From Sphingomonas sp. (GTDB lineage: Bacteria > Pseudomonadota > Alphaproteobacteria > Sphingomonadales > Sphingomonadaceae): a stretch of DNA of 40,264 nt. Numbering within the stretch: position 1 is the first letter of the stretch; every line of letters begins with the position of its first letter. Shown here one piece after another: positions 6,598 to 25,585 of this stretch. The stretch is taken from positions 1 to 40,264 of the forward strand of contig JAICVC010000003.1 of NCBI GenBank assembly GCA_025935515.1, read 5' to 3'. The notes beneath the pieces are model-generated. The model was not told the DNA's origin and did not search any database. It was given only the letters and a program-made list of their open reading frames with translations. Both the position numbers and the translations under genes were made by a program.

Positions 6598-7445
6598 GAG
6601 CCCGAGGCTCCGCCGCCGCCGAAGCCGCCGCCACCAAAGCCGCCGAAGCCGCCGCCTCCTCCGCCGCCGAAGCCGCCTCCCCCTCCCCAAGAGCCTCCGC
6701 CCCAGCCGCCACGGCGCGAACCACGGCTCAGCTCGTTCAGCCCCCACAGGATCACCCATGGGCTGATCCCGCCGCGGCGCGTGCGGTAACGGCGCCCGAC
6801 CGCGCGGCGGAACTGCGACAGGATCACGAAGCCGATCACGAACACCCAGAAGATGATCGGCAGCGGGTTGCCGCCCGAACGCTCGCGCTGCTGCTGCGCC
6901 TGCGCGGCGGACGCGGCATTTTTCTGCGCTTCCTCTGGCGGCAGGCTCATCTGCTTGATGATTGCGTCGGCGCCCGCCTCGATCCCGCCGCCGTAATCGG
7001 GCGGGTTCTGCTTGAAGTGCGGCAGGATCGCTTCGCGGATGATGATCCCCGACATGGCGTCGGTCATGTACCCGCCGGCGCCATAGCCGGTGGCGATCGA
7101 CACCTTGCGCTCAGCCGGTGCGACCAGCAGCAGGACGCCGTCATCGTTCTTGGCGCTGCCGAGCTTCCAGTAACGGCCGAGGCGGTAGGCATAATCCTCG
7201 ACCGGATAGCCTTCGAGGCTCTTGACTGTCGCGACTGCGAACGCCCGCCCGCTCTGCGCGTAAAGCGCTTCGGCCTTCGACTTCAGTTCGGCGACTTGCT
7301 CGGGCCGCAGGATGCCCGCCTGGTCGACGACCGGCGATCCGTTGTTGGCCGGGAACGTCTGCCCCGCAGCGGGGCCCGCCAAGCAGAGCAGAACTGTCAT
7401 TGCGAGCGCAGCGAAGCAATCCAGGATGCGCCTCTGGATCGCCAC
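6591..7445 (-). CDS. TPM domain-containing protein (YgcG-like) with Gly-rich C-terminus
   Basis: PVVDQAGILRPEQVAELKSKAEALYAQSGRAFAVATVKSLEGYPVEDYAYRLGRYWKLG...DDGVLLLVAPAERKVSIATGYGAGGYMTD; tail GGGGGFGGGGGGGFGGFGGGGFGGGGASGSW. GTG start at 7445 lies in a palindromic repeat. Confidence 0.88.
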   Translation of the reverse strand: MAIQRRILDCFAALAMTVLLCLAGPAAGQTFPANNGSPVVDQAGILRPEQVAELKSKAEALYAQSGRAFAVATVKSLEGYPVEDYAYRLGRYWKLGSAKNDDGVLLLVAPAERKVSIATGYGAGGYMTDAMSGIIIREAILPHFKQNPPDYGGGIEAGADAIIKQMSLPPEEAQKNAASAAQAQQQRERSGGNPLPIIFWVFVIGFVILSQFRRAVGRRYRTRRGGISPWVILWGLNELSRGSRRGGWGGGSWGGGGGFGGGGGGGFGGFGGGGFGGGGASGSW

Positions 7446-7469
7446 GTCGCTGCGTTCCTCGCGATGACG
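7396..7469. repeat. Interspersed palindromic repeat (family 1, copy A)
   Basis: GTCATTGCGAGCGCAGCGAAGCAATCCAG ... CTGGATCGCCACGTCGCTGCGTTCCTCGCGATGAC, imperfect inverted arms; related to copy B at 24743-24818. Confidence 0.85.
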
Positions 7470-21989: not shown

Positions 21990-22376
21990 GTGCATCTTCT
22001 CTCCCGCCCTCGCCGTCCACGCCGCTCCGGTGAATGGACGTCCGATGGGGCTGTTACCTTCATTGTCACCCTCGCCGTGAGCCGGTCTGTCACCCTCGCC
22101 GCCCGTAAGGCGGGCATGAGCCGCAAATCGGCGTACGCGCTCAAAGGCCGCGATCCGGTCTTTGCCTCTCCCTGGGCCGCCGCAATGCAAGCGCGCCAAG
22201 TGCGTGGCCTGAGCTCGTCGAAGGGTGACAAAGTGAAAGAAGTACACGAACCCTCGGTTTCACCACGTCACGGTGACACGTCACCCTCGCGACTGGACCG
22301 TGAACGAGCGTTCGCCGGCCTCGTCGCCAGGCTCCGCGAATCGCCTCCGCTTGCTCCCCGCGCGTCCGCCCAATAG
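21990..22376 (+). CDS. Small HTH-like protein (sphingomonad-type, function unknown)
   Basis: SGEWTSDGAVTFIVTLAVSRSVTLAARKAGMSRKSAYALKGRDPVFASPWAAAM helix-turn-helix-like pattern; GTG start. Confidence 0.65.
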   Translation: MHLLSRPRRPRRSGEWTSDGAVTFIVTLAVSRSVTLAARKAGMSRKSAYALKGRDPVFASPWAAAMQARQVRGLSSSKGDKVKEVHEPSVSPRHGDTSPSRLDRERAFAGLVARLRESPPLAPRASAQ

Positions 22377-22386
22377 GGCCGCGCTG

Positions 22387-23784
22387 ATGATCGATTCACC
22401 AGTGTTTTTCAGCGGCATCGGCGGCAGTGGGATGTTGCCGCTCGCATCGATCGTCCGGGCCGGCGGCGCCAAGGTCGCGGGCTCGGACCGGTCGCTCGAC
22501 GCGGGCCGCACGCCGCACAAGTTCGACTATCTGCGCTCGCTCGGGATCCAGCTGTTCCCGCAGGACGGCTCGGGGCTCCAGGACGGCATGACCCTGGTCA
22601 CGTCGGCGGCGGTCGAGGCGACGGTGCCCGACGTGGTGCGCGCGAAGGAGCTTGGCCTGCCCCACCTCACCCGGCCCGAATTCCTCGCTGGCCTGCTCAA
22701 CTCCGCGCAGCGCAGCGTCGCCGTCGGCGGGACGAGCGGCAAATCAACCGTCACCGGCATGATCGGCTGGATCCTCCAGGCCGGCCATCGCCAGCCGACC
22801 GTAATGAACGGCGCGGTGATGAAGAATTTCGTCACGCCGAGCGCGCCTTTCGCAAGCGCGCTGGTCGGCGACCCCGAGCTGTTCGTTAGCGAGGTCGACG
22901 AAAGCGACGGCTCCATCGCGCTTTACCAGCCGGAGATCGCGGTGCTGACCAACATCAGCCTCGACCACAAGGAAATGGACGAGCTTCGCTCGCTGTTCGC
23001 GCATTTCCTCGGCCGCGCGCGGAAAGCCGTGCTCAACCTCGACGACCCGGAGACGCGGGCGCTGTCCGAAACCGTTCCCGCCGACAAGGTCCTCGCTTAC
23101 GGCTTCGACAGCCCGGGCGCCGATTTCATGGGGAAGGATCTTCAGCTCCTGCCCGACGGTGTGACCTTCGCGCTCGAGGCCGAAGGCGAGCGGCACGAAG
23201 TTCGGCTTGCGGTTCCCGGCCGACACAATGCCTCAAACGCCCTTGGCGCGATCGCCGCGGCTGGTTCGCTCGGCGTGCGCATCGAGGATGCGGTGATCGC
23301 GATCGGCCGGTTCGAAGGTCTCAAGCGCCGGCTCGAAACGGTCGGCGAGGCGGGCGGCGTGACCGTCATCGACGATTTCGCGCACAATCCGGACAAGATC
23401 GCCGCCACTCTGGCGACGCTCCGCGCGCAGCCGGGGCGGCTGCTGATCATGTTCCAGCCGCACGGTTATGGGCCCCTCGCCAAGATGGGCGAACCGCTCG
23501 CCGAGAGCCTCGCCGACGGAATGGCGTCCGAGGACCGGCTTTACCTGCCCGATCCGGTCTATCAGGGCGGCACGGTCGAAAAGGTGCGCGGGTCCGACTG
23601 GCTTGCCGAGCAAGTCCGCGAGCGCGGCAGGCAGGCAGAGCATCTCGCCGACCGACCGAAGATCGGCGATGCGCTGATCGCCGAAGCGCAGCCCGGCGAC
23701 CGTATCCTCATCATGGGCGCGCGCGACGACACGCTGATCGAGTTCGCCCGCGGGCTCGTCGAGCGGCTAGGCTCGTCATCCTGA
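22387..23784 (+). CDS. Mur ligase family protein (MurC/Mpl-like)
   Basis: FFSGIGGSGMLPLASIVRAGGAKVAGSDRS, GGTSGKSTVTGMIGWIL, VSEVDESDGSI, ISLDHKEMDEL, VIDDFAHNPDKI. Confidence 0.9.
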   Translation: MIDSPVFFSGIGGSGMLPLASIVRAGGAKVAGSDRSLDAGRTPHKFDYLRSLGIQLFPQDGSGLQDGMTLVTSAAVEATVPDVVRAKELGLPHLTRPEFLAGLLNSAQRSVAVGGTSGKSTVTGMIGWILQAGHRQPTVMNGAVMKNFVTPSAPFASALVGDPELFVSEVDESDGSIALYQPEIAVLTNISLDHKEMDELRSLFAHFLGRARKAVLNLDDPETRALSETVPADKVLAYGFDSPGADFMGKDLQLLPDGVTFALEAEGERHEVRLAVPGRHNASNALGAIAAAGSLGVRIEDAVIAIGRFEGLKRRLETVGEAGGVTVIDDFAHNPDKIAATLATLRAQPGRLLIMFQPHGYGPLAKMGEPLAESLADGMASEDRLYLPDPVYQGGTVEKVRGSDWLAEQVRERGRQAEHLADRPKIGDALIAEAQPGDRILIMGARDDTLIEFARGLVERLGSSS

Positions 23785-23862
23785 ACTCGTTTCAGGATCC
23801 ATTTTTTTGAGCAACGCGGCACACATCGGCGGAATGGATGCTGAAACAAGTTCAGCATGACG
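23774..23862. repeat. Interspersed palindromic repeat (family 2)
   Basis: CGTCATCCTGAACTCGTTTCAGGATCCAT ... ATGGATGCTGAAACAAGTTCAGCATGACG; arms are near-inverted copies (3 differences) and each arm is itself a hairpin. Confidence 0.85.
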
Positions 23863-23876
23863 TTGTTGGAGTCTCA

Positions 23877-24253
23877 TGGCCAAGCCCGGAACCGTCACTG
23901 GCTGGAAGCTTCCAGGCGATGAGCGCGCCCTGCTGCTTCAGCGCTTCGCCCCTAGGTACGAAAACGTGGTCGCCGATCACGTGACCCTGCGCGTCGGCGC
24001 GACACCCGAAACGCCTTTGCCGCGCAAACCCGACGCGCAGATCGTCGGCTACGCAGACGACGGCGACAGTCTCGAATGCCTGGTCGTGGCGCTCGACGGG
24101 ACGACCGACCGCCCGGACGGCTCGACCTATCACATCACCTGGTCGCTCGGCTCCGGGCGGAAAGCGCGGGAGAGCAACGCCGTGATCCGCGATCAGGGCT
24201 GGAAGCCGATACCCGCCCCCATCGATGTTACTTTGGAGCCCGCCCGGTTCTGA
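23877..24253 (+). CDS. Putative 2H phosphoesterase-like protein
   Basis: 125 aa; two H-x-T motifs ADHVTLRVG and YHITWSLG spaced as in 2H phosphoesterases; stop overlaps next start (TGATG). Confidence 0.6.
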
Positions 24254-24741
24254 TGTCCGAACCAAGGCTCTTCCTGGACGCCGACGGAGTCCTCGCCGAT
24301 TTCGACCGCGGCACGCAGCGGCTGCTTGGGATGAAACCCAAGGCTTTCATCGCGAAGCACGGCCGGGGGGCATTCTGGAAGCGGCTTGCCAACGCGAAGA
24401 ACTTCTACGGCACGCTTCCGAAGATGTCCGACGCTGAGCTGTTGTTCGACGCGGTCAAGCATTTGAAGCCGACGATCCTGACCGGCCTGCCGCTCGGCAA
24501 TTGGGCGGCCGCGCAGAAGGTCGAATGGGCGGCCGAGCATTTCCCCGGCGTGCCGATCATCACCTGCATGGCGCGGGACAAGCACAAGCATATGCATCCC
24601 GGCGACGTGCTGGTGGACGACCGGGAAAAGCACCGCGAGGCCTATGAGGAAGCCGGCGTGGTCTTCGTCCATCACAAGAATGCCGAGGACAGCCTCAGGC
24701 AGCTGGCGAAATTCTTTCCGTCGGTGGGGGTGCTTGCCTAG
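24253..24741 (+). CDS. HAD superfamily 5'-nucleotidase-like protein (NT5C-type)
   Basis: MSEPRLFLDADGVLADFDRGTQRLLG (DxDGVLADF motif), KPTILTGLP, HPGDVLVDDREKHREAYEEAG. Confidence 0.82.
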   Translation: MSEPRLFLDADGVLADFDRGTQRLLGMKPKAFIAKHGRGAFWKRLANAKNFYGTLPKMSDAELLFDAVKHLKPTILTGLPLGNWAAAQKVEWAAEHFPGVPIITCMARDKHKHMHPGDVLVDDREKHREAYEEAGVVFVHHKNAEDSLRQLAKFFPSVGVLA

Positions 24742-24742
24742 C

Positions 24743-24818
24743 CGTCATTGCGAGGAGCGAATGCGACGAAGCAATCCAGTGCGTGCTTCTGGATTGCTTC
24801 GCTACGCTCGCAATGACG
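24743..24818. repeat. Interspersed palindromic repeat (family 1, copy B)
   Basis: CGTCATTGCGAGGAGCGAATGCGACGAAGCAATCCAG tgcgtgctt CTGGATTGCTTCGCTACGCTCGCAATGACG. Confidence 0.9.
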
Positions 24819-24826
24819 CTAAGCGT

Positions 24827-25378
24827 TTAGGCCGCGGCCTTGAGGTCGACCTTCTCGACCCACTCCGGCCAAAACACCGGCTCGCGGCTCGACCAGCCTG
24901 GCGCGGTCGCGGCGCTCTCGCTGATCGACTGGAGCAGGGTCCGGCGGCGGTCCGGGTGTAGGTGCGGCAGCGCCGCGGCAGCGCAGAAGGCGCTCGGCAG
25001 CCACGGCCGGGAGGAAGCGCCGATCAGCCGCTCGTACAGGAAGCGGTAGGCGGCGAAATTGGGCAAGCGGTCCTGCCCGAGATCGAACGCCGAAAGCGTG
25101 ATCAGCATGCCGACGAACGGCTCGATCATGTCGAGGCCGCTGTCGTCCGGCACCTGCAGCCGCAGATGGTCGAGCTGCTTGTAGAGACGGGCCTGGGCGC
25201 GGATCGACGCGGCTTCGCCTTCGTCGCGGGCCCAGCATTCGATCGGGTCGCGGCGGCCGTAGGCCACATCGAGCGACCGGCGGATGTAGCGCTGGGTCGC
25301 TTTGGCGAAGCTTGCGAACTCCTTCATTTCGGAGATCAGCATGGCCCCACTCGCCGGCTGACTGGTCCGCGTAATCAT
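24827..25378 (-). CDS. Hypothetical protein
   Basis: MITRTSQPASGAMLISEMKEFASFAKATQRYIRRSLDVAYGRRDPIECWARDEGEAASIRAQARLYKQLDHLRLQVPDDSGLDMIEPFVGMLIT; start uncertain (25378 or 25342). Confidence 0.7.
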   Translation of the reverse strand: MITRTSQPASGAMLISEMKEFASFAKATQRYIRRSLDVAYGRRDPIECWARDEGEAASIRAQARLYKQLDHLRLQVPDDSGLDMIEPFVGMLITLSAFDLGQDRLPNFAAYRFLYERLIGASSRPWLPSAFCAAAALPHLHPDRRRTLLQSISESAATAPGWSSREPVFWPEWVEKVDLKAAA

Positions 25379-25585
25379 GATTCCGACTCCCGTTCCACAG
25401 GCGGGATCATGCGGCTCTATTGGTTTCGAGAAACTTAACCACAGTCCCACCCCCCGTTCAGATTGAATCAGAGGGGAGTCACCGCGTCTAGGTAAGAAAT
25501 TGGCGAGACGCCGGAAAACTGTGGATTGTTGATTATTTGCAACGGCGAGGCATTTTTGTGACGCAGCCGTTACCTTCGCTAAACG

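Follow-up and report, generated by a model that had tools for sequence, protein, structure and literature searches.

Overlapping genes for a minimal 2H-phosphoesterase-like protein and an NT5C-type HAD phosphatase in Sphingomonas: a candidate pair for healing RNA 3' ends

In described RNA-repair systems, the cyclic end is resolved by a 2H enzyme, after which a HAD phosphatase takes off the linear phosphate (PMC7824862, PMC9503650). In jumbo phages the 2H step and the HAD phosphatase step precede ATP-grasp ligation, and the phage sets comprise a 2H protein, a PNK-HAD or Swiss-army-knife HAD protein and an RNA ligase (PMC7824862). Products of 2H enzymes that bear a 2'-phosphate have been described (PMC9503650), and CNPase makes 2'-phosphate products (PMC3290555). 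Here, we describe a pair of genes, P1 and P2, in a 40 264-nucleotide stretch of a Sphingomonas sp. contig (JAICVC010000003.1; hereafter the window). The pair would share the division of labour of the phage sets, and a ligase lies beside it in one phage lineage. It differs from these sets in that its 2H protein belongs to an unregistered family, its HAD protein is NT5C-like and its bacterial loci contain no ligase. The combination of such a 2H family with an NT5C-type HAD protein in overlapping genes, in a host for which scans with RtcB, KptA and RNA_ligase (PF09414) gave no known sealing partner, sets it apart from the known sets. We propose that P1 and P2 are a two-step 3'-end healing pair, in which the 2H protein opens a cyclic phosphate and the HAD protein removes the phosphate, and assign this reading a probability of roughly one half. 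The features of the locus are summarized in Table 1.

Table 1. Features of the P1–P2 locus in window coordinates.
Feature	Coordinates	Strand	Evidence
Mur-ligase (Mpl-like) gene	22273..23784 (predicted start)	+	Pfam Mur_ligase domains, synteny
Family-2 palindrome, dispersed repeat	23774..23862	.	Folding, genome-wide copies
P1, minimal 2H-phosphoesterase-like protein, 125 aa	23876..24253	+	ORF, conserved motifs, AF2 model, Foldseek
TGATG stop/start overlap of P1/P2, one shared base	24251..24255	+	Sequence
P2, NT5C-type HAD phosphatase, 162 aa	24253..24741	+	PF06941, HAD motifs, AF2 model, Foldseek
Family-1 palindrome, dispersed repeat	24743..24818	.	Folding, genome-wide copies

Gene products and predicted folds

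P1 begins with an ATG at position 23876, one base before the start given in a preliminary description of this DNA (23877), and stops at TGA 24251–24253. It contains the two motifs that had been pointed out in the 125-aa protein, ADHVTLRVG (HVT; His35 and Thr37) and YHITWSLG (HIT; His86 and Thr88). The ATG of P2 at 24253 lies inside the P1 stop codon, and the protein, which ends at 24741, carries LFLDADGVLADFD; both the overlap and the HAD signature were correctly described. Low dN/dS values against four relatives (0.11–0.22 for P1 and 0.13–0.16 for P2) indicate purifying selection, and both are therefore real genes. Residues His35, Thr37, Arg79, Gly82, Ser83, Thr84, His86, Thr88, Trp89, Ser90, Ser100 and Asn101 of P1 are invariant in 54 aligned relatives, with conserved blocks GST-H-TWS and SN, and neither HxT motif varies in a phage-centred alignment of 13 divergent sequences. 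The two histidines are conserved in homologues, as the preliminary description expected.

Scans of P1 against Pfam and NCBIfam gave zero matches, and neither P1 nor its 54 relatives reached the curated cut-offs of the Pfam 2H families LigT, 2_5_RNA_ligase2, tRNA_lig_CPD and 2H-SAK. Similarity below the cut-offs was found for one bacterial relative to tRNA_lig_CPD (E of 0.014), for another to 2H-SAK (E of 0.16) and for the member from phage Atu_ph07 to tRNA_lig_CPD (E of 0.004, second half only, 17.1 bits versus a cut-off of 23). An assignment of P1 to a named Pfam 2H family was rejected, since the profiles remain below their curated cut-offs. The sole PHROGs match is phrog_36523 (PHROG 36523, function unknown), with an E of 5.8e-25, and sequence searches of the PDB with P1 as a single sequence and as two profiles returned chance-level matches only. 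Judged by its sequence, P1 is a member of a 2H family that is unregistered in Pfam and NCBIfam.

The AlphaFold2 model of P1 has a pLDDT of 94.9 and shows a small protein without an RNA-binding extension. In a Foldseek search of the PDB the first rank was taken, with a probability of 1.00, by the fungal RNA kinase entry 6u05, which we take to be a Trl1 kinase–cyclic phosphodiesterase (CPD) construct, and the next ranks by mouse CNPase entries, mostly with probabilities of 0.82–0.99; the E-values of these matches are modest, the best being 2.8e-3 and none reaching 1e-3. Among viral models, a Marseillevirus RNA ligase ranks first (E of 9.8e-5), ahead of proteins of Cafeteria roenbergensis virus and Sylvanvirus and, lower down, of Acb1 models. 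The modelled structure supports the double-lobed 2H fold for P1, in agreement with the 2H character given to this protein in the preliminary description.

LigT structures are absent from the top 50 fold matches of P1. We place P1 as a minimal 2H protein closer to Trl1-CPD and CNPase than to LigT. P1 resembles the Trl1 CPD (PF08302) in its HxT/HxT motifs, its predicted fold, its best PDB match and the weak profile similarity of divergent members (E of 0.004–0.014), but it is a stand-alone protein of 125 aa as opposed to a Pfam domain of 250 positions, lacks a fused kinase or ligase and scores below the cut-off. The CNPase catalytic domain has the HxT motifs and the 2H fold in common with P1 (Foldseek probabilities reach 0.99), but is a vertebrate domain of 207–218 aa with 7–10% identity to P1. 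LigT/ThpR (PF13563) is, like P1, a bacterial 2H family, but P1 has no PF13563 match; the genome carrying the window encodes two LigT-type 2H genes besides P1. By analogy with the chemistry described for CNPase and LigT, a 2'-phosphate is the more likely product of P1 (PMC3290555, PMC5283653).

The place of Acb1 among the viral matches bears on another role for P1, the degradation of cyclic oligonucleotide or ADP-ribose cyclic-phosphate signals in signalling or counter-defence, which we consider very unlikely. Acb1 is a compact anti-CBASS 2H nuclease with an HxT/HxT tetrad (PMC9117128) that, like P1, occurs in phages, P1 being present in jumbo phages. However, the Acb1 models match P1 far more weakly than the RNA-ligase-type models (TMq of 0.42–0.47 versus 0.63–0.70), Acb1 has no linked HAD phosphatase in PMC9117128, and the chromosomal position of P1 is conserved in the bacterial genus.

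P2 matches NT5C (PF06941) with 34.9 bits versus a cut-off of 24.8, and all 34 aligned P2 members match this profile (E up to 1). HAD_SAK_2 is touched by nine of the 34 (best E of 0.002), with no match for P2 itself. The HAD motifs of P2 consist of motif I (Asp9-x-Asp11), Thr77, Lys110 and Asp122-Asp123; in the alignment the four aspartates and Lys110 are invariant and Thr77 is present in at least 90% of members. The AlphaFold2 model (pLDDT of 95.1) finds human and mouse 5'(3')-deoxyribonucleotidases as its best Foldseek matches (E of 2.4e-6). P2 passes the Pfam cut-off for NT5C and shares the fold and the catalytic motifs with these enzymes, and differs from them in being ∼30 residues shorter than the animal proteins and in being coupled to a 2H gene. 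In one relative (G009:C1:2457176-2457645) P2 is split over two pieces, by a frameshift or an assembly error.

Linkage of P1 and P2

The TGATG overlap is likely to couple translation of the two genes, as read from the sequence, and in nearly all relatives the two genes either overlap (by −1 or −4) or lie only a few bases apart. P1 was found in 31 of the 61 genomes sampled closest to the window, all from the same genus, and P2 adjoins it in every one of the 31. Beyond these, P1 is carried by 66 contigs of other species (Sphingomonas, Novosphingobium, Azospirillum, Phenylobacterium, Roseomonas, Microvirga and others), by plasmids, by the jumbo phages SCTP-2, Phosso and Atu_ph07 and by viral contigs. 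P2 adjoins P1 in 37 of the 66 wider loci and P1 stands without P2 in 29; together with the phage loci described below, these counts agree with the preliminary description, in which the genes were expected to be neighbours elsewhere. Two of the 37 paired loci are convergent (Roseomonas, L084 and L087), so that three arrangements occur overall: P1–P2, convergent and P2–P1. Fusions of P1 and P2 were sought as well; none occurs among the loci, and long frames (such as 585 aa in L080) are upstream open frames.

Across 301 genomes of the family, P1 is present in 34, a strong P2 in 21 and both in 14 (13 adjacent), compared with ∼2.4 co-occurrences expected (Fisher 2e-10; 4e-7 outside the genus; the test ignores phylogeny). 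Distances between P1 proteins correlate with those between P2 proteins (r of 0.61, reached in 0 of 2000 permutations), to which shared descent contributes. In a class-wide sample of 389 genomes P1 was present in only three of the 388 others and is hence rare outside the family. In G013 (L173) and G690 (L174), mpl, P2 and the downstream genes are kept and P1 is missing, and P2 can therefore persist alone.

Phage loci and the proposed route of end healing

An NT5C gene adjoins P1 in 23 of 73 phage or viral loci (counted with duplicates), arranged as NT5C–2H or 2H–NT5C. In five contigs (L191, identical to L119, and L186, L199, L202 and L206) NT5C–2H is followed by a T4-type RNA ligase 1 (Rnl1), which in L119 matches PF09511 at 6.7e-20 and PF20819 at 3.6e-20; P1 in the Rnl1 contigs is 60–82% identical to that of L191. 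No T4-type RNA ligase 1 occurs in 71 nrdB control loci; a control built on topoisomerase yielded two loci only and was set aside. A CCA-adding-type nucleotidyltransferase follows P1 in a further lineage (L107/L226 and L225). All five Rnl1 contigs represent a single syntenic phage lineage, as do the CCA contigs. Taken as gene order, these cassettes lend support to a link between the pair and RNA-end processing. The preliminary description, which saw an RNA-end or nucleotide-processing module, is in this respect partly supported: the link to RNA ends has gained from the phage loci, and that the two proteins act one after the other on an RNA end is kept here as a proposal, to which free nucleotides are a serious alternative.

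In other phages the pair adjoins the ribonucleotide reductase genes nrdA/nrdB. This neighbourhood, together with the best structural matches of P2 and the annotation of phrog_2643, would fit control of the deoxynucleotide pool, with P2 as a dNMP phosphatase and P1 as an unrelated accessory hydrolase kept alongside for operonic convenience. The overlapping genes and the three arrangements argue instead for a joint role, P2 is ∼30 residues shorter than the animal enzymes, and we judge this explanation improbable.

The two-step healing reading would run as follows. Metal-independent RNases would leave 2',3'-cyclic phosphates on RNA 3' ends; P1, as a Trl1-CPD/CNPase-like 2H protein, would open the ring, probably to a 2'-phosphate; and P2, as an NT5C-class HAD protein, would take off the remaining phosphomonoester to give a clean 3'-OH. 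The phage RNA ligase 1 could then seal this end, the CCA-adding enzyme could extend it again, or host exonucleases could degrade it. We infer the substrate and the product, the order in which the two proteins act and their physiological role from the invariant HxT/HxT motifs, the predicted 2H fold, the intact HAD motifs and the NT5C fold, and from the recurrent adjacency, the co-occurrence, the conserved overlap, the correlated distances and the Rnl1/CCA context in phages. The reading offers a testable function for an unregistered 2H family found across alphaproteobacteria, plasmids and jumbo phages, and for a partner for which annotation would otherwise suggest a deoxyribonucleotidase. If it is true, removal of cyclic and of linear 3'-end phosphates forms a separable pair, maintained by hosts in the absence of a ligase and joined to one by phages, and P1, as a candidate cyclic phosphodiesterase of 125 aa, might serve as a small end-healing reagent.

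Conserved small genes lie upstream of HAD–2H–Rnl1 (L191:5030-7466 and the syntenic L186, L199, L202 and L206), including a calcineurin-like phosphoesterase gene and, immediately ahead of NT5C, a gene for 81 aa; they may be further members of this repair set. In Phosso and Atu_ph07 (L121 and L122), the P1 relative is located between a topoisomerase gene and the genes for a Clp ATPase and IF-3.

Bacterial surroundings and flanking repeats

RtcB and KptA are each absent from 22 of 23 sampled same-genus genomes (each present in one), and the RNA_ligase (PF09414) match in the genome carrying the window is LigD, with 52% identity to S. cloacae LigD. The host therefore has no obvious sealing partner within the scan, which took in RtcB, KptA and RNA_ligase (PF09414). 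No RNA ligase was seen beside P1–P2 in the bacterial loci. In a ligase-independent version of healing, genera largely without RtcB and KptA would use their own 2H–NT5C pair to restore a 3'-OH on tRNA cleavage products or at DNA breaks that end in ribonucleotides and are passed to LigD; completion would fall to the CCA-adding enzyme, to exonucleases or to LigD, and phages would have captured the pair and added RNA ligase; we regard this version as doubtful.

The same lack of a visible partner (RtcB, KptA and PF09414 having been scanned) would suit salvage of free nucleotides, in which P1 would hydrolyse the 2',3'-cNMPs of RNA decay and P2 would convert NMP to nucleoside, RNA ends not being the target. 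NT5C is a mononucleotidase family, P1 is small and has no RNA-binding extension, and mononucleotides are also bound or acted on by CNPase and LigT (PMC3290555, PMC5283653). The Rnl1 and CCA-adding-type genes linked to P1 in phages speak against salvage, as does the patchy class-wide distribution (3/388), which is unusual for a core salvage function, and we think salvage possible but unlikely. Counting against the two-step healing reading are the host without an obvious ligase, the loci with P1 or P2 alone and the nrd neighbours in phages, as well as the restriction of the Rnl1 and CCA contigs to one lineage each and the lack of PDB matches with E ≤1e-3.

The neighbours of solo P1 are housekeeping or stress genes, and no general third partner emerges in these loci. 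On Sphingobium/Sphingomonas plasmids (L160, L163 and L165), solo P1 lies near ligD, exodeoxyribonuclease III (xth) and cupin genes; L160 and L163 also have genes for an SOS-response peptidase, and L160 has imuA. These surroundings look like stress islands. On Sphingobium plasmids (L159:4839-6836 and L167:4880-6871) a PCMT–erythromycin esterase fusion directly follows P1–P2. A role in stress or DNA-repair islands, including the healing of ribonucleotide-terminated DNA ends for LigD, could draw on both kinds of plasmid loci and on the LigD of the genome carrying the window, but the evidence comes from two plasmid lineages only, many other loci have unrelated neighbours, and we hold such a role to be hardly probable. 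Genes related to the PCMT–erythromycin esterase also occur close to P1–P2 in L057, L069 and L090 and next to a solo P1 in L081, and the P1 copies in L163 and L165 appear frameshifted.

The gene order in the genus is mpl–P1–P2–(207-aa gene)–histidine kinase–LytTR regulator. For most relatives with a measurable distance, mpl ends −1 to 72 bases from P1, and mpl is probably the operon leader in the genus, outside the P1–P2 module. The 207-aa protein (24827–25450, minus strand) has no Pfam match above cut-off, is syntenic and is 80–84% identical in relatives, a conservation that exceeds that of P1 and P2.

The preliminary description had the pair bracketed by two palindromic repeats. Both repeats are present and fold far better than shuffled sequences (z of −5.5 and −4.9), but the bracketing is incidental: half-site matches number nine for family 1 and 17 for family 2 in the 1.89-Mb assembly (0 for a reversed-pattern control), and beside same-genus pairs a family-1 unit occurs on one side in two relatives only and family 2 in none. 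The palindromes were therefore rejected as part of the module, being dispersed repeats that are not conserved beside the pair. The half-sites of the two families are GTCATNCTGAACTNGTTTCAG and GTCATTGCGAG; a further copy in the window lies at 7396–7468, and other contigs of this genome carry more copies.
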